Shown here piece after piece: positions 31,365 through 39,464 of a stretch of DNA of 64,000 nucleotides. Within the stretch, counting starts at the first letter, position 1. Every line of letters starts with the position of its first letter. The stretch covers positions 1 to 64,000 of the forward strand of contig JAAWDM010000013.1 in assembly GCA_022793795.1 (NCBI GenBank). The letters run 5' to 3'. Below the pieces are notes generated by a model. It worked only from the letters and a program-made list of their open reading frames with translations. It did no database searches and had not been told where the DNA came from. A program made the translations under genes and the position numbers. Source of the DNA: Bacillota bacterium. Lineage in GTDB: Bacteria > Bacillota > Clostridia > Peptostreptococcales > Anaerovoracaceae.

Positions 31365-32342
31365 CTATACCAGGTGGCAGGCTACATATCTATGGGGTGC
31401 AGCTTCCTTTAACTCTGGCGCCTCTGCAGCGCATCGCTCGGTAGCGAATGGACATCTGGTTCTAAAGTGGCAGCCGCTCGGAGGATTGACTGGACTTGGA
31501 ATCTCACCGGTTAACATGTCCTTGGCCTCTTTTTTCTTTTCTGGGTCAGGTAGTGGAACTGCTTCCAGAAGAAATTTTGTGTATGGATGAATCGGATCTG
31601 CATAAATCTCACGGGTAATACCCAATTCACAGATTTTCCCCAAGAACATGACGCACACTCGGTCGGACAGGTATCTGACTACGGATAGATCATGAGAGAT
31701 GAAGATATAGGTTAAATTTCTCTCTGCCTGTAAATCGCCGAGCAAATTGAGGATTTGGGACTGAATGGATACATCCAGCGCAGATACCGGTTCATCGCAG
31801 ACAATGAGCCGAGGGTTCAGAGCCAAGGCTCTAGCAATGCTGACGCGCTGCCGCTGGCCGCCGGAGAACTGATGGGGATATCTGTACATAAATTCTGGAC
31901 GAATACCACATTTTCGCAAGAGATCTTCTACAAGAGCGGTTTCCTCTTCCTTGCTCTTGGTTATATTGTGAGTAGTCAGGGGTTCTGCTACAATGTCCCG
32001 AATTTTTAGGCGAGGATTTAAGGATGCATATGGATCCTGAAATACCATCTGCATCTGCTTGCGCATATTGCGCATTTCCGCTTCCTTTAGCTCGCCCAGG
32101 TTCTGTCCATCAAAGATGACGTCGCCTCTGGTAGGCTGCAAAAGGTGGAGAAGAAGGCGGCCCAGTGTAGACTTACCACATCCTGATTCACCTACCACAC
32201 CAAGAGTTTCGCCTTCATAGACCTGTAGGTTCACGTCGGTAACTGCATGAACGATGCCCTTACTCTTTCCCCAGGAGCTGGAAACGGTTGTAAATTCCTT
32301 TGTCAGGTTTTTTGCTTCAACCAAAATCTTTTTATTTTCCAC
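31365..32342 (-). CDS. oligopeptide/dipeptide ABC transporter ATP-binding protein (OppF/DppF type)
   Basis: This is one of two ATPases driving peptide import through the OppB/OppC-type permease. The 325-residue protein has Walker A GESGCGKST near residue 55, signature SGGQRQRVSIARAL and Walker B LIVCDEPVSALD. The C-terminal oligopeptide-transporter tail has CHFRTRCPFATERC. Translation starts at GTG (32342), with GAGGTG 7 bp upstream, and overlaps the previous ATPase gene by 11 bp. It is the last gene of the leftward operon. Its stop lies beside repeat R1, and I see no terminator hairpin apart from that repeat. Confidence 0.93.
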   Translation of the reverse strand: MENKKILVEAKNLTKEFTTVSSSWGKSKGIVHAVTDVNLQVYEGETLGVVGESGCGKSTLGRLLLHLLQPTRGDVIFDGQNLGELKEAEMRNMRKQMQMVFQDPYASLNPRLKIRDIVAEPLTTHNITKSKEEETALVEDLLRKCGIRPEFMYRYPHQFSGGQRQRVSIARALALNPRLIVCDEPVSALDVSIQSQILNLLGDLQAERNLTYIFISHDLSVVRYLSDRVCVMFLGKICELGITREIYADPIHPYTKFLLEAVPLPDPEKKKEAKDMLTGEIPSPVNPPSGCHFRTRCPFATERCAAEAPELKEAAPHRYVACHLV

Positions 32343-33330
32343 TGTTCATCACCTCTTCGTTGTACAAGAAGCATCTTACCTTGTGGCCGTCCTCCGTTTC
32401 ATAAAGGTCAGGCTGATACATGGTGCAGATCTTCATTGCTTTATCGCATCTTGGACAGAAACGGCAGCCTTGCGGCAGATGGAGCAGGTTGGGAACCAGT
32501 CCTTTGATGGTATAAAGATGCTCCTTGGTTTCTGTCATTTTTGGAATAGAGTTCATGAGACCATAGGTATAAGGGTGCATCGGGTTTTTGAATAGTTCGC
32601 GGACAGGCGCTTCCTCCATAATCTTACCAGCATACATGACATAAACATAGTCACAGGATTCTGCTACAACGCCCAGGTTATGGGTAATCATGACGATGGC
32701 GGTGCCTTGTTCTTTTTGAAGCTGATTCATTAGATAGAGAATTTGTGCTTCGATGGTTACGTCTAGGGCGGTTGTCGGTTCGTCTGCAATCATCAGCTGT
32801 GGGTTGCAGACCATGGCCATACCGATCATAACACGCTGACGAAGGCCGCCGGACAACTGGTGTGGATAGACCGAATATCTTTTTTCTGGTTCGGGAATAC
32901 CCACCTTGCGGAATATTTCGATAGTTCTCTGCTTAGCTTCTTCTTTAGATACGTTTGTTTCATGGGTCAGGATAGCTTCTGAAACCTGTTTCCCGATGGT
33001 ATAGACGGGATTCAGAGAGGTCATCGGCTCCTGGAAGATCATGGATACCTTGCTACCTCTAATGTCATCCATTTCCCGTTTGGTTTTCTTGAGCAAATCC
33101 TCTCCGTCCAGAAGGATTTCCCCATCTACTACACGGCCGGGATATTTGAGCAGTTGCATGACAGACATGGCCGTCATACTTTTGCCGCATCCAGATTCTC
33201 CAACCAGACCGACCGCTTCTCCCTTTTTTACGGTAATATCCACGCCGTCTACCGCAGGAACGATACCCTTGGAAGTGAAGAATTGGGTTTTTAAGCCTCT
33301 GATTTGGAATATTGTATCGTTATTACTCAT
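32332..33330 (-). CDS. oligopeptide/dipeptide ABC transporter ATP-binding protein (OppD/DppD type)
   Basis: This is the second ATPase of the leftward peptide importer. The 332-residue protein has Walker A GESGCGKSM near residue 41, signature LSGGLRQRVMIGMAM and Walker B LMIADEPTTALD. The C-terminal Cys motif is CRFCPRCDKAMKIC, as in peptide and nickel importers. The start has GGCGG shortly upstream, 17 bp after the permease gene. Tight packing with the other genes shows one operon. Confidence 0.93.
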   Translation of the reverse strand: MSNNDTIFQIRGLKTQFFTSKGIVPAVDGVDITVKKGEAVGLVGESGCGKSMTAMSVMQLLKYPGRVVDGEILLDGEDLLKKTKREMDDIRGSKVSMIFQEPMTSLNPVYTIGKQVSEAILTHETNVSKEEAKQRTIEIFRKVGIPEPEKRYSVYPHQLSGGLRQRVMIGMAMVCNPQLMIADEPTTALDVTIEAQILYLMNQLQKEQGTAIVMITHNLGVVAESCDYVYVMYAGKIMEEAPVRELFKNPMHPYTYGLMNSIPKMTETKEHLYTIKGLVPNLLHLPQGCRFCPRCDKAMKICTMYQPDLYETEDGHKVRCFLYNEEVMNSGK

Positions 33331-33347
33331 AAATTCACCGCCTTATC

Positions 33348-34337
33348 TTAATCCTTGAGAGATGGATCCAGCTGATCGCGCAGAGCATCGCCTAGGAAGT
33401 TGAACGCAACTACCAGAATCAGAATTGCGATACCAGGCGCCAGGGTTGGAACCGGTGCTTGCGTAAGGTATTTCTTCATTTCAAATACCAGAAGACCCCA
33501 GCTGGTTGAAGGCGGCTGTGCACCGATACCCAGGAAGGATAAACTGGATTCTGTCAAAATGTTAGCTGGCACGTTCATAGTGAACAGAACCACCAGAGTA
33601 GACAGACAGTTAGGCAAAATGTGGCGGAACATGATGGTGGAACGCTTTACACCGATGGAGGTAGCTGCTTCCACATATTCCTTTTCCCGGAGAGAAAGAA
33701 CCTCGGAGCGAACCATACGTGCGGTGCTGGCCCAGCCTACGAAGCTGAGCGCAATAAAGATGGTCAGCATACCTTTGCCTAGGGTATAAGATACTAACAT
33801 GGCTAAAAGCAGCGAAGGGAAGGCCATCAATACGTCAGCGATACGCATGATGATGTTATCGGTTTTGCCGCCGACGAAGCCTGCAATCAATCCCAGAATG
33901 GTGCCTAGCACCATAGAGATTAGTGTAGGAAGAAGTCCTACCATGAGGGAGACGCGGCCGCCATATAACATTCTAGTAAACACATCACGGCCTAGGCTAT
34001 CGGTTCCCAAAATATGTCCCTCGCATGGGTTAGAGGCTCTGTTATACATATCCTGTGCATTTGGATCGCAAGGTGAAATCAAAGGTGCGAAAATGGTTAA
34101 CAGTATAAACAAGAGAATGATAATTGCGGAAACAAGCGCCAGTTTATTATGGCGAAACATACTGAAAATCTGTTCTTTGAGAGTTTCGTCAGGGGCTAAT
34201 TCAGCTTCGGCTTCCTCCTCTATGGATACAGGCTCAGTGGCGCCCTCTGGTATCCAGTCGGAACCCTCCATAGCGAAGCCTGATACAATTTTATCTGCTA
34301 AAACGTCAGCAGCCTGGTCTATTTTTCTTAATCCCAT
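33348..34337 (-). CDS. oligopeptide/dipeptide ABC transporter permease (OppC/DppC type)
   Basis: This is a membrane permease of the leftward peptide importer. The 329-residue protein has six hydrophobic segments. The typical pair of motifs is present: GTDSLGRDVFTRMLYGGRVSL and the EAATSIGVKRSTIMFRHILPN loop that contacts the ATPases. The N-terminal 75 residues before the first helix are longer and more acidic than usual (SIEEEAEAELAPDETLKEQ). It lies 11 bp after the partner permease gene. Confidence 0.93.
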   Translation of the reverse strand: MGLRKIDQAADVLADKIVSGFAMEGSDWIPEGATEPVSIEEEAEAELAPDETLKEQIFSMFRHNKLALVSAIIILLFILLTIFAPLISPCDPNAQDMYNRASNPCEGHILGTDSLGRDVFTRMLYGGRVSLMVGLLPTLISMVLGTILGLIAGFVGGKTDNIIMRIADVLMAFPSLLLAMLVSYTLGKGMLTIFIALSFVGWASTARMVRSEVLSLREKEYVEAATSIGVKRSTIMFRHILPNCLSTLVVLFTMNVPANILTESSLSFLGIGAQPPSTSWGLLVFEMKKYLTQAPVPTLAPGIAILILVVAFNFLGDALRDQLDPSLKD

Positions 34338-34348
34338 AATGCGCCCTC

Positions 34349-35269
34349 CTATTGTTCACGAATTTTAGGGTCTAGGAAGGAATATAGAATATCCGCTACC
34401 AGATTACCTAAAATGATGATCATCGTTGAGAAAATGACGGAGCCCTGGAGCAGCGGCATGTCCCTTGTATTAACTGCGGAAACCATGAGTACGCCGATAC
34501 CACCAATGCCGAATACGGTTTCCGTCAGTACGGCGCCGGAAAGCAGGCTGGCAAATTGCATAGCCATCATGGTAACAACCGGAATCATAGCATTTTTTAG
34601 TCCATGACGAATGACGACCAGAGATTCCTTGATACCTTTTGCACGCGCAGTACGGATATAGTCGTTCTTCATGATGCCCAGCAGACTGGAACGAGTCAGC
34701 CTGGCGATAGTACCAGAGGAAGCCCAGCCTAACACAAAGGCAGGCATGATCATATGCTTCCATGTGGAATAGCCAGAAATGGGCAGAATGCCTAAGGTAG
34801 ATGCGAAGATAAACTGCATCAGCATAGCCGCCCAGAATACTGGAAGGGAGATACCTACTAGAGAGAAGCCCATGAGGGAACGATCAAGCAGAGTATCTTT
34901 CTTGATGGCAGAAACGATGCCAGCAGGAATACCGATGATCCATGCGACCAGAGCGGCTGTGATAGCCAGCTTGACTGTATTAGGAAAAGCTTCTCCGATG
35001 AGTGTTGCGATTGGCCTGTTTAATTTATATGAAATACCTAGATCTCCTTGGAGCGCATCTACAAGATACCGACCGAATCGAACCAGAACAGGATCGTTTA
35101 GGCCCATCTGCTCGGTTACTCGTTCAATGACTGCAGGATTGGCCTTTTCTCCCATCATAACGGTGATCGGATTACCAGGAAGCACCTGCAACATCAGAAA
35201 CACGACCAGAACCACTGCAATCATCAGCGGAATGGAGATAAGAATACGCTTGGTTATATATTTTCCCAT
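34349..35269 (-). CDS. oligopeptide/dipeptide ABC transporter permease (OppB/DppB type)
   Basis: This is the partner permease of the leftward peptide importer. The 306-residue protein has six hydrophobic segments, starting MGKYITKRILISIPLMIAVVLVVF. The family loop is RTARAKGIKESLVVIRHGLKNAMIPV. I chose the ATG at 35269 because GAAAGGA lies about 10 bp upstream and the family starts with this pattern; an ATG 18 bp earlier is less likely. A stable hairpin separates it from the binding-protein gene. Confidence 0.92.
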   Translation of the reverse strand: MGKYITKRILISIPLMIAVVLVVFLMLQVLPGNPITVMMGEKANPAVIERVTEQMGLNDPVLVRFGRYLVDALQGDLGISYKLNRPIATLIGEAFPNTVKLAITAALVAWIIGIPAGIVSAIKKDTLLDRSLMGFSLVGISLPVFWAAMLMQFIFASTLGILPISGYSTWKHMIMPAFVLGWASSGTIARLTRSSLLGIMKNDYIRTARAKGIKESLVVIRHGLKNAMIPVVTMMAMQFASLLSGAVLTETVFGIGGIGVLMVSAVNTRDMPLLQGSVIFSTMIIILGNLVADILYSFLDPKIREQ

Positions 35270-35304
35270 GTGTTTCCATCCTTTCAAAATTTAGGCTTTG
35301 AAGG

Positions 35305-35423: not shown

Positions 35424-37109
35424 TTATGCGGCAGGGGTCAGCTCTACAGAATAGTAGCTGCAATCGCCCCAGCCAGCCCAGTGCGGTACGAAACCTTTTA
35501 CTCTAGGCTGTACGACTCTGATTTTCTGTAAGTGGAACAGTGGGATCCATGCTGCATCCTCTTGAATTACCAGCTGCTCCAGCTCTCTATATTCTTCCAT
35601 ACGCACATCTTCATCGATAATGTGTCTTGCTGCTTCGATTCTAGCAATCGCATCCTTGTTGTAATAGTTGAAGGAACGAGTCTTAGTAGAAGCAGAGGAG
35701 AAGAAGGTGTAGATAAAGTTATCTGGGTCATTGAAATCTCCCCACCAAGTTGCAGTGTACATCGGCAGTTCGCCTGTAGCACGGACGTCGTACCAGGATG
35801 CTTCATCCATCTGGTCGATATTGACGGTTACATTGATCGCTTTCCACTGTTCCTGAATGATCTGGAGCAGTTCCAGCGTGGAATTGCCGTCAGAAGAGGA
35901 CATCGCGATAGTCATTTCAAAGCCATCTGCGTAGCCAGCTTCATCCATAAGTTTCTTAGCGGCTTCTACGTCATAAGGGATTTCAGGTAGGTTTTCATTG
36001 TAGCCAACCATGCTCTCTGGGAAGATTCCGTGGGCAATAACGCCAGTACCTTCATACAGAGTATCGAGAATGATCTGTTTGTCCAGAGACATCTGTAATG
36101 CCTTACGAACTCTTACATCCTCGAATGGTTCGATGTTTTCATTGATGGCCAGGTATGTAGTACCGAAGGTTACCTTTGGTACGATGCAGTCCTTCCACTG
36201 GTCGGAAGCGGTGTATTCACTGATCAGATGCCTTGCATTGTCTAAGTCAAAGATATCAGTCTGACCTTGGTCGAACATCATTTTTTCAGTATCGGAATCG
36301 CTGACAACCTTGATCAGAACACCGTCGATCTTAGGAGCGCCCTGCCAGTAGTCAGGATTTGCTTCTAGGTAAATATGGTCGTTAAGAACCCATTCTTTTA
36401 GGATGAATGGACCAGAACCGATGGTGTACTCCGGCTCAGAACCAAAGAAGGAACCCGTCTTGCCGCCGCCAGCTTCATCGGCTGCGTCGCAGGCCTCTCT
36501 GTTTAAGATAGACCAACCTGGAACGCTTAGGGTAGCCAGGAATGGTGCATAGGATTCATTGAGCACTAAGTCAAAGTTGTAATCGTCATGGATGATTACG
36601 CCCTTACCCTCTACAGTAGTAGCTTTGCCGTCCAGCACATCCTGTGCGCCAACCAGCATATCCATCCATGGGGAGTTGAGCGTGCTTCTTTCAGGGTCCA
36701 ACATACTGTCAACGGTGTAAAGGACATCGTCGGCAGTCAGTTCTTCGCCGTTAGTGAATTTGATACCTTGTCTCAGGTGCATGCTGTAGGTTTTACCGTC
36801 CTCGGAAATTTCCCATGTTTCAGCGGCGCCTGGCTGTAATTCGGAACCGCCGTCCTCAGTGGAAACTGTCATGACCAGGGTATCGAATATATTCATCGGA
36901 ATGATATAGTCTGCTGTGGTCTGACGAGGATCGCCGGTTTCACATTCATGGTCATAGGTGATACGAAGTACGTTTTCACCAAAGCCATCATCGTAATTAA
37001 CGGCGCTACCGCCGCCTGGATTGTTGTCGTTGCCGTTGCTGCTGCATCCGGCGAAGCATGTCAAGATCATCACGAAAATCAATATTGTCGCGAATAACTT
37101 CTTTTTCAT
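35424..37109 (-). CDS. peptide ABC transporter substrate-binding lipoprotein (OppA/DppA family)
   Basis: This surface lipoprotein captures peptides for the leftward importer. The 561-residue protein has a lipoprotein signal MKKKLFATILIFVMILTCFAGC, with the lipobox Cys near residue 22. The SBP family 5 fold follows, with TYSMHLRQGIKFTNGEELTADDVLYTVDSM and VRKALQMSLDKQIIL. GGAGGAGAAAGG precedes the ATG. About 105 bp upstream of the start of translation, on the same strand, is a close match to a sigma-54 promoter. Expression is therefore likely controlled by the adjacent sigma-54 activator. Substrate preference cannot be read from sequence. Confidence 0.93.
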   Translation of the reverse strand: MKKKLFATILIFVMILTCFAGCSSNGNDNNPGGGSAVNYDDGFGENVLRITYDHECETGDPRQTTADYIIPMNIFDTLVMTVSTEDGGSELQPGAAETWEISEDGKTYSMHLRQGIKFTNGEELTADDVLYTVDSMLDPERSTLNSPWMDMLVGAQDVLDGKATTVEGKGVIIHDDYNFDLVLNESYAPFLATLSVPGWSILNREACDAADEAGGGKTGSFFGSEPEYTIGSGPFILKEWVLNDHIYLEANPDYWQGAPKIDGVLIKVVSDSDTEKMMFDQGQTDIFDLDNARHLISEYTASDQWKDCIVPKVTFGTTYLAINENIEPFEDVRVRKALQMSLDKQIILDTLYEGTGVIAHGIFPESMVGYNENLPEIPYDVEAAKKLMDEAGYADGFEMTIAMSSSDGNSTLELLQIIQEQWKAINVTVNIDQMDEASWYDVRATGELPMYTATWWGDFNDPDNFIYTFFSSASTKTRSFNYYNKDAIARIEAARHIIDEDVRMEEYRELEQLVIQEDAAWIPLFHLQKIRVVQPRVKGFVPHWAGWGDCSYYSVELTPAA

Positions 37110-37226
37110 CCTTTCTCCTCCTCTGTCATAAGTCTTTCATGAATTTTTGCGAGCCTTACATGAAAGCGTCGAATTATACAGGCTATTTCATTTTATGCGG
37201 ACGCTTAAATGTGTACCACTAAAAAA

Positions 37227-37243
37227 AGCAAAGATTGTGCCAA
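37227..37243 (-). promoter_or_regulatory. sigma-54 (-24/-12) promoter of the leftward opp operon
   Basis: On the minus strand TTGGCACAATCTTTGCT has GG and GC dinucleotides exactly 10 bp apart and matches the TTGGCAC-N5-TTGC(A/T) consensus at nearly every fixed base. It lies about 120 bp before the lipoprotein gene. A run of nine C is found 9 bp upstream of the -24 box. The rest of 37110-37410 holds the leader and the site at 37338, with no gene. Confidence 0.8.
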
Positions 37244-37251
37244 GACCCCAC

Positions 37252-37260
37252 GGGGGGGGG
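37252..37260. repeat. homopolymer run of nine G (nine C on minus strand) beside the -24 box
   Basis: Nine G in a row occupy 37252-37260. On the transcribed orientation of the leftward operon they form a C9 run just upstream of the sigma-54 promoter. Another run of the same length is in the regulator gene at 38913-38921. Runs of this length slip readily during replication and are also common sites of assembly error. Confidence 0.9.
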
Positions 37261-37337
37261 TATCGTATAAGGGATTGCAATGGTTTTGGATAAGATTGGA
37301 TAAAAAAGAGGAAGATACTCAATAAGTTAAAACGAGA

Positions 37338-37352
37338 TTAAATAAGATTTAT
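37338..37352. promoter_or_regulatory. candidate activator-binding site, copy 1
   Basis: TTAAATAAGATTTAT occurs here and again, identical, at 39450-39464. The core TAAAT-AAG-ATTTA is an inverted repeat. This copy lies about 95 bp upstream of the leftward -24 box, within the range for enhancer sites of sigma-54 activators. The AT-rich composition lowers its weight. Confidence 0.5.
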
Positions 37353-37410
37353 GAACGATTGATGAATGAAAGATGAAAGCACAGTGATAGATGGGTCTGG
37401 GACACAGAAA

Positions 37411-38862
37411 TCAATGTCCCAGATAGGATTTTCCAATGGTGGTGATACGAGTTCCCCCGCGGCCTTTCCCAATTTCTACGAGATTGCGGTTCTCCAGAGA
37501 AGCAAGCATATCGCGCAGTTTTCCGTCGCTGACATCGATGCCGCGTCCTTTTAGCGTATGCAAAATAGAAGAGCGTCCTACGCCGTGGGAGACAGAAGTT
37601 CCGGCAGCGATAACCTCTAAAAGATTGCGGTCTAAATCTTCTGCGGAAGTTACCGCAGAGGACTGAAATGACGAAGATTGATCATAGAGATAATCAGGTA
37701 ACGAGGATAGGGCGTTGTAGTAGGTCGCTATATTTTCTAACTCGCGAATATTGCCCGGCCAACTGTAGTTTGTCAGGATTTCACTCTCTTCTCTGGTAAT
37801 ATTTCGATAAACGCTCCCTAGAAAATGTTCCATCAGGCCAGGGATGTCCTCTTTGCGATTACGCAGAGGCGGCAGAGTAAGCGGCAGTACATTCAGTCTA
37901 AAAAACAGATCGGCACGAAAGGCGCCTGCGCTGACGGCAGTCTCTAAATCTTTATTGGTAGCTGTGATGATACGGATGTCCACGTCGATCAGGTGATCGC
38001 TGCCTAGCCGAAGAACCTGCCTTTCCTGTAGCGCGCGGAGGAGACGGGCTTGGAGACTCAGAGGCAGGTCGCCGATCTCATCTAAAAATATAGTACCGTG
38101 ATTGGCTTGCTCAAATAGACCAGTTTTTCCCTTTCCTTTGGCGCCAGTGAAGGCTCCTGCGTCATAACCGAACAATTCGCTCTCCAGCAAATTTTCTGGA
38201 AGAGAAGCACAGTTGATAGCTACAAAAGGCCCGCTACTGCGAAAAGAAGCGTTGTGAATGGATTGGGCGATAAGTTCTTTACCAGTACCGCTTTCCCCAC
38301 GGATTAAAATCGTATAATCGGTAGGCGCTATCTGGCGAGCTTTATCGATGATGGTTTTCATGGCAGGAGATTGATGGACGATATCCTTGAACTGATATTT
38401 TGCCACATATCCTTTTTGGATGTTTTGACGATTGGCATCTGCAATGTCCGCCTCGTCCTGCAAGGTAATATAGTAACCTACCGTTTCATCCATCAGCATA
38501 AACGAATACTTATTATAATAGTAACGTTGTCCTGAAATTTCCAAGGTCTCTGAAGGTGTTTCGGATTCGGTTAAAATGGATAAACCAATATAATCCTCTA
38601 TGTGAATTTTAGATACATCGCTGACCTGAAACACGGACGCCACCTTGGGATTAGCATAGACAACGCGGTATTGATTATCTACTAAAACCATGGCGATTTT
38701 TGCCTTTTTTGCAATGTGACCTAACATTTCGGTTTTTAGGTAGCTGTTGATATAGTTATCATGAAACGCTGTATTAGATTCTAGCACTGACTGAATATGG
38801 CGAAACAGATTCCGGTTGACGATATCGATATCTAAATCCAGCATCATCATAAGGGTGTACAT
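37411..38862 (-). CDS. sigma-54-dependent activator, PAS-AAA+-DNA-binding part (C-terminal fragment of a split gene)
   Basis: The 483 residues counted from the ATG at 38862 contain a PAS-like sensor (KIAMVLVDNQYRVVYANPKV, residues about 55-130). The AAA+ domain has Walker A GESGTGKE at 189-196, the sigma-54 contact loop GAFTGA at 236-241 and Walker B GTIFLDEIGD near 256. The C-terminal domain looks like a winged helix rather than the usual Fis-type helix-turn-helix (GRSSILHTLKGRGIDVSDGKLRDML). The ATG at 38862 has only a poor ribosome-binding site. The same frame stays open upstream through INSIIDIGYRKVSFDT to the C9 run, so this is the back half of one gene begun at 39380. It probably activates the two flanking peptide-transport operons. 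Confidence 0.85.
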   Translation of the reverse strand: MYTLMMMLDLDIDIVNRNLFRHIQSVLESNTAFHDNYINSYLKTEMLGHIAKKAKIAMVLVDNQYRVVYANPKVASVFQVSDVSKIHIEDYIGLSILTESETPSETLEISGQRYYYNKYSFMLMDETVGYYITLQDEADIADANRQNIQKGYVAKYQFKDIVHQSPAMKTIIDKARQIAPTDYTILIRGESGTGKELIAQSIHNASFRSSGPFVAINCASLPENLLESELFGYDAGAFTGAKGKGKTGLFEQANHGTIFLDEIGDLPLSLQARLLRALQERQVLRLGSDHLIDVDIRIITATNKDLETAVSAGAFRADLFFRLNVLPLTLPPLRNRKEDIPGLMEHFLGSVYRNITREESEILTNYSWPGNIRELENIATYYNALSSLPDYLYDQSSSFQSSAVTSAEDLDRNLLEVIAAGTSVSHGVGRSSILHTLKGRGIDVSDGKLRDMLASLENRNLVEIGKGRGGTRITTIGKSYLGH

Positions 38863-39380
38863 GGTATCAAAACTGACCTTACGATACCCAATATCAATAA
38901 TAGAGTTGATGTGGGGGGGGGTACTAGGGAAGTTTCATTTGGAGTGATAGCAACGGTTAGGTTATCGTAAATGCCAGTATGTGTTAAATTGGCGTCATAA
39001 GGAATTAGGGTGATATGGCCGATGCCCACATCATTGAAAGAGGCCACCGTTTCCATCGCGTTCTCATAGCTATCGTTGACTACTAACACATTACTGCCAG
39101 ATGGAATTGCAGAGATTTTTTCTAGTGCGTCCCGCCGTGGACTCCGATTGACCTTGATGATAGTAGTGTAATCGCTGACATAATTCTTTAAAATCTGGAA
39201 GGGAACTTCATTAGCAGCTAGATAAGCGTCATCGTGTAAAAGGGTGGTTTCATCAAAAGCGTCAAGATAGTAATTGGTGAAGGTAGCATGTCCTCCAAAT
39301 ACCGCCTCTAAGCTTTGCAAAATATAATCCATGGCTTCTGCATTATAGGAATTAGCGTAGATGATGCCTACTCGTTTCAT
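38847..39380 (-). CDS. N-terminal sensor part of the split sigma-54 activator
   Basis: The frame starts MKRVGIIYANSYNAEAMDYIL with a good GGAGAAT site and encodes 177 residues. Residues 1-155 look like the N-terminal signal domain found in some Clostridial sigma-54 activators, ending with DNLTVAITPNETSLVP. After a C9 run the frame changes to unrelated sequence and stops at 38847. The other frame continues with the expected INSIIDIGYRKVSF. With ten or seven C the two parts would form one protein of about 660 residues. The gene is either frame-shifted, phase-variable or miscalled at the run. Confidence 0.75.
   Translation of the reverse strand: MKRVGIIYANSYNAEAMDYILQSLEAVFGGHATFTNYYLDAFDETTLLHDDAYLAANEVPFQILKNYVSDYTTIIKVNRSPRRDALEKISAIPSGSNVLVVNDSYENAMETVASFNDVGIGHITLIPYDANLTHTGIYDNLTVAITPNETSLVPPPTSTLLLILGIVRSVLIPCTPL
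38913..38921. repeat. homopolymer run of nine G (C9 in the regulator coding strand)
   Basis: Nine G occupy 38913-38921. On the coding strand the sequence reads GTA, nine C, then ACATCAAC. The current length puts the N-terminal and AAA+ parts in different frames. A change to ten or seven joins them without any other edit. Confidence 0.9.
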
Positions 39381-39449: not shown

Positions 39450-39464
39450 TTAAATAAGATTTAT
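39450..39464. promoter_or_regulatory. candidate activator-binding site, copy 2
   Basis: TTAAATAAGATTTAT is identical to the site at 37338-37352. It lies about 160 bp upstream of the rightward -24 box and 70 bp upstream of the regulator start, so it could serve activation of the rightward operon and control of the regulator itself. The interval 39381-39735 has no gene. Confidence 0.5.

Follow-up and report, generated by a model that had tools for sequence, protein, structure and literature searches.

Nine-base G/C tracts at an opp operon and in sigma-54 activator genes suggest random switching of nutrient uptake in an uncultured gut relative of Emergencia

Can a run of nine identical bases beside a sigma-54 promoter act as a slippage site that tunes the operon behind it? 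The question is raised by the window (the whole stretch of 64,000 nucleotides that we analyzed), in which reading of the sequence and a run-length scan place a homopolymer, G9 on the plus strand and C9 on the minus strand, at 37252-37260, with CCCCAC before it and TATC after it on the plus strand. On the minus strand the run spans about -44 to -36 and ends 9 bp upstream of TGGCAC, so that the preliminary description of a C9 run at this distance from the oppA promoter is borne out by the sequence. The interval given there, 37243-37260, is wider than the run, for it extends across the gap of 8 bp as far as the promoter's first T. An equal run, G9 at 38913-38921, lies within the regulator gene at a separation of 1.66 kb. 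No further run of at least nine bases is found in the 64-kb window, as had been claimed, the next longest being A8/T8, and besides the two nine-base runs the scan detected no G or C run of at least seven bases there. An order-2 Markov model predicts 0.014 G9 positions in the window.

The sigma-54 promoter is real. It is a perfect match on the minus strand (TTGGCAC-N5-TTGCT, 37243-37227; TTGGCACAATCTTTGCT), with correctly spaced -24 (TGGCAC) and -12 (TTGC) elements and a start predicted at about 37217, which leaves 108 nt before the oppA ATG. A pattern search found ten strict consensus sites in the genome and none for the reversed control pattern. The site is kept as CTGGCACAATCCTTGCT in the closest relative found, the mouse-gut MAG iMGMC-281 (L127; 78% amino-acid identity). 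Downstream on the minus strand lie the gene of an oppA-like solute-binding protein of 561 aa (35424-37109; SBP_bac_5, PF00496, E 4e-92) and, in the same operon, oppB-, oppC-, oppD- and oppF-like genes (31365-35287; two matches to BPD_transp_1 and two to ABC_tran with oligo_HPY). The gene order from oppA to oppD is identical in L127. The C-run is another matter: it is absent from L127, where AGATTTTTTCTCT stands in its place, and from the genus members examined, and thus is not conserved in orthologues. None of the other nine strict sigma-54 sites of the genome adjoins a long homopolymer. The promoter location of the tract is that of transcriptional phase variation by a simple sequence repeat.

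The neighboring regulator is a sigma-54 activator (bEBP) whose frame is broken at a run of the same length. The gene occupies 37411-39380 on the minus strand (Sigma54_activat, PF00158, E 6e-70), its translation contains GESGTGKE and GAFTGA, and in the assembly it is split at the C9 run (38913-38921, minus strand) into frames of 177 and 483 aa. The frame is open when the number of C residues is 3n+1. The L127 orthologue is a single ORF of 666 aa that reads GTG CCG CCG CAT where the window has GTA-C9-ACAT. Both halves of the regulator are under purifying selection, with pN about 0.13 and pS about 0.80; synonymous sites are near saturation, and only the contrast between pN and pS is used here. 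Since both halves are constrained, the gene is maintained and its broken state is recent or reversible, and constraint on either side of the frameshift rules out a pseudogene. A repeat in the coding frame that breaks the frame of a gene still under selection is the configuration of translational contingency. For the stretch of about 150 residues at the N-terminus of the regulator, ahead of the run (39380-38922 on the minus strand, in the 177-aa frame), there was no Pfam match, and the N-terminal region of the L127 orthologue showed no sequence match to a solved structure; this region may be a ligand-sensing domain of bEBPs that has not been described before.

Across the genome (2.48 Mb in 58 contigs) there are eight G9/C9 runs, all of exactly nine bases and none longer. 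The counts are 23 for G7, 4 for G8, 8 for G9 and 0 for G10 or longer, a bump at nine where a geometric fall would be expected (P about 7e-7, by extrapolation from G7 and G8). The order-2 Markov model expects about 0.55 G9 genome-wide. We rejected a first-order model, under which about 20 G9 would be expected, as a misfit because the roughly 315 G7 positions that it predicts are far above the 55 observed. The nine-base runs are rare, yet too common and too uniform for background; the promoter C9 is thus both a homopolymer long enough to slip and one of a kind over-represented in this genome.

Four of the eight runs sit inside sigma-54 activator genes, two of them in frame and two out of frame. 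Activator genes number about 31 (30 strong Sigma54_activat matches and one degenerate) and make up only about 2.1% of the genome, so that such a share is very unlikely by chance; in tests formed post hoc, after the data had been seen, P was 1.3e-5 for the four of eight and 3e-4 for the three of seven left when the window's own gene was set aside. Apart from that gene, the activators concerned carry their runs shortly downstream of a plausible ATG, where nine bases put the gene out of frame (C9, C8:1489-1497, L319), at the N-terminus MDLNFAGGGTV, in frame (C10:3068), and in the linker before the helix-turn-helix, in frame (C44:29583). The N-terminal run of the second of these is absent from the homologues examined. 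The remaining four comprise the run at the opp promoter, one within a gene for a VanY-like carboxypeptidase and two between genes. The preliminary description would have counted as a refutation a large number of equal runs unconnected with regulation; with only eight in the genome, half of them in sigma-54 activators, the runs are rare and concentrated on such regulators, and this objection therefore falls away. A gene for a peptide-type solute-binding protein (SBP_bac_5) stands beside three of the four run-bearing activators, two of which are also next to an arginine-deiminase-like gene, and the fourth activator adjoins a mandelate-racemase-like enzyme and a dihydroxy-acid dehydratase. The bEBP at L319 has a degenerate sigma-54 domain and is divergent from mandelate-racemase-like and dihydroxy-acid dehydratase genes, with a sigma-54-like site between them.

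Runs of G9 to G13 occur in classic contingency positions in related genomes, those of Emergencia timonensis and Emergencia sp. 1XD21-10 among them, and slippage at G-tracts is therefore to be expected in the lineage. G9-10 occupies the spacer of sigma-70 promoters (TTGACA...G9-10-TATAAT) at L286, L291, L296, L297 and L301, and similar promoters occur at L287, L290, L314 and L315; the TTGACAAAAATGTAT-G9-TATAAT spacers of Emergencia and its relatives are apparently classic phase-variable promoters. Promoter-located G-tracts are thus used in this lineage, though in sigma-70 spacers. Other G-runs lie in glycosyltransferase and polysaccharide genes (L279, L280 and, in genome G105, L088-L093), and a homologous tract in the signal-peptide region of a surface protein differs in length between two species, G9 (L294) against G10 (L305). 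The genome of L127 itself has one G-run at the 3' end of an activator gene (L278). Together, the genome-wide excess, the concentration in activator genes, the constraint on the regulator and the contingency tracts of relatives indicate that this class of tract is very probably slip-prone and regulatory.

The flanks of the clade's G-runs were counted from the two runs of the window (37252-37260 and 38913-38921), L001-L008 and L277-L315. Among runs of at least nine, T comes next in 30 of 34 (TA in 19) and C or T stands before in 32 of 34; among G7-G8 runs the corresponding figures are 15 of 41 and 23 of 41, and the contrast in the following T gives P about 5e-6. The -10 TATAAT accounts for this T only in the promoter-spacer class, and coding runs show it too. 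In G105, which belongs to another genus of the family, seven G8-G10-TAC runs occur, mostly in glycosyltransferase or other polysaccharide genes and near the start or end of the frame. As a family-wide signature, however, G8-TAC fails: it is enriched only in the present genome (5 against 0 reversed) and in G105 (7 against 0), with no enrichment across the other 97 genomes searched. A run of G22 followed by TAAAAAAAAAAA, near a contig end of Emergencia sp. 1XD21-10 (L298 2003, G113:C11:90142-90163), may be an assembly artefact.

Upstream of the C9 tract lies a candidate activator site, TAAATCTTATTTAA, at 37338-37351 on the minus strand. It has only two exact copies in the whole genome, the second of which (39450-39463, minus strand) is upstream of the regulator's sigma-70-like promoter (TTGTCT...TATACT), and both copies are conserved in L127. 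We regard it as a strong candidate for the binding site of the regulator bEBP. At oppA the distance from TAAATCTTATTTAA to TGGCAC, start to start, is 109 bp, compared with 116 bp in L127, a difference of 7 bp or 0.67 of a helical turn. In more distant orthologues the motif or the promoter is not recognizable. A hairpin, CTGGGACATTGATTTCTGTGTCCCAG, at about 37396-37421 was also considered as an activator site; L127 has a terminator-like hairpin at the corresponding place, and CTGGGACATTGATTTCTGTGTCCCAG is therefore more likely to be the regulator's 3' end.

The explanation that we favor, tentatively and as one that falls just short of probable, is that the promoter C9 is a slip-prone contingency tract of the type seen in the clade, with the regulator's frame switch dominant and the promoter run a modest tuner. 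The promoter run would belong to a small set of slippage-prone G/C tracts centered on sigma-54 activators and one sigma-54 promoter. The bEBP encoded just upstream would bind TAAATCTTATTTAA, about 110 bp from the promoter, and drive oppABCDF. The C9 within its gene would work as a translational frame switch that leaves the activator randomly full-length or truncated, and so would provide the dominant on/off control. The run at -36 to -44 would probably be a second slippage site, whose changes in length would alter expression modestly, through local DNA beside the -24 box and not through precise helical phasing. We infer slippage in this strain, binding by the bEBP and an effect of the promoter run on expression. 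Of the two runs, the one that switches the regulator's frame is probably the main switch, and the one at the promoter may be either a passenger or a modest tuner. Independent tuning by the promoter run, as first proposed, is questionable as long as the regulator stays out of frame, since a promoter of the sigma-54 type normally needs an activator. Against the favored explanation stand the absence of the run from the closest relative, the post hoc nature of the enrichment statistics and the fact that small changes in spacing are often tolerated where the activator site of a sigma-54 promoter is remote.

If the promoter C9 is a passenger, it slips but has no regulatory effect and only the frame switch of the regulator matters, a reading that we consider a serious possibility though a somewhat improbable one. 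The run and its flanks are not conserved in L127, whereas the -24/-12 elements and the candidate activator site are; the spacing differs by 7 bp between the two species; and two other G9 runs are intergenic and have no recognized promoter role. Against this, the chance of a run falling directly at a sigma-54 promoter is small (P about 1e-3 for ten promoters, 5e-3 for fifty), and the activator of the same operon bears another tract.

The mechanism originally suggested for the promoter run was a change in distance and face: each C gained or lost would rotate the activator site by about 34 degrees relative to the -24 box and would in this way tune activation. The C9 does fall between the candidate site and the -24 box, and there is a precedent in nadA of Neisseria meningitidis, a looping promoter in which repeat number changes the spacing of regulator sites and expression levels can be set by how far apart the distal sites lie (PMC2791445). 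In nadA, however, the repeats are tetranucleotides and the regulator is a repressor, whereas here the unit is one base, the regulator a putative activator and the spacing not conserved. Close relatives that differ by two-thirds of a turn, with no C-run in L127, are unlikely to require tight phasing between site and promoter, and one-base steps would turn a loop of about 100 bp only slightly. We therefore discount the distance-and-face mechanism, which we judge unlikely, and keep a local effect at the promoter as possible.

Errors of assembly or sequencing could in principle have misread the run lengths, so that the regulator is intact in most cells. The genome is in 58 contigs, all eight runs read exactly nine, and a consensus hides mixtures in the population. 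Misread lengths, however, cannot explain why the runs exist, why they are rare or why they cluster in bEBP genes; two of the four run-bearing bEBPs are in frame, independently assembled relatives show G8 to G13, and a mixed population would itself be phase variation. Such an artefact is very unlikely. That the G-run is a sigma-70 promoter spacer, as are many G-runs of relatives with TTGACA...G9/10-TATAAT, is hardly credible despite the TATC next to it on the plus strand, for no sigma-70-type site is found on either strand in 37100-37460.

The favored explanation, a contingency tract beside the promoter subordinate to a frame switch in its activator, is made up of parts of known kinds. It has been proposed that homopolymeric tracts in general serve prokaryotes as a regulatory device (PMC2831843). 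In Campylobacter jejuni, homopolymeric tracts that gain or lose a base switch FlgR, a sigma-54 response regulator (PMC3930126; PMC8355987). FlgR/FlgS thus resembles the present case in homopolymer switching of a sigma-54 activator, but its tracts are A/T tracts of fewer than 7 bases, are described as not truly reversible (PMC8355987) and control flagella, whereas here C9/G9 tracts occur in several bEBPs beside nutrient operons. For the promoter run, a parallel is Bordetella fim2/fim3/fimX, where a C-run lies between the activator site and the core promoter and its length changes transcription; one extra base in the short tract of fimX lowers the transcript 3.8-fold (PMC1891110). There the C-stretch is flanked by the -10 box and the activator region, while here the promoter is of the sigma-54 type and the candidate site is remote. 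The sigma-70 promoters of Emergencia relatives share the clade, the G9-G10 length and the promoter location, but their runs lie between -35 and -10 and not upstream of a -24 box. What is unusual is the concentration of tracts on sigma-54 activators of nutrient operons, and the presence of one tract by the -24 box together with another in the matching activator. The open-access literature searched yielded neither a description of phase-variable bEBPs from this lineage nor a case of a homopolymer adjoining a sigma-54 -24 box.

Homopolymer phase variation is known mainly from the surface structures of mucosal pathogens. Here, in an uncultured gut bacterium placed near Emergencia by its nearest named relatives, the targets are activators that adjoin genes for peptide-type transporters and for sugar-acid enzymes, and the two tracts in one operon make a clean, testable case. 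Eight rare runs, half of them in activator genes, suggest random on/off switching of nutrient uptake. A wider scheme, in which contingency is distributed over nutrient regulation, several sigma-54 activators being switched by G/C9 runs and opp held under two locks (on/off times level), is a serious possibility though a somewhat improbable one. If true, it would mean a contingency system aimed at the activators of peptide-type and sugar-acid operons instead of surface antigens. With nutrient-operon activators as the targets, clonal cells may hedge their bets on which nutrients to take up.
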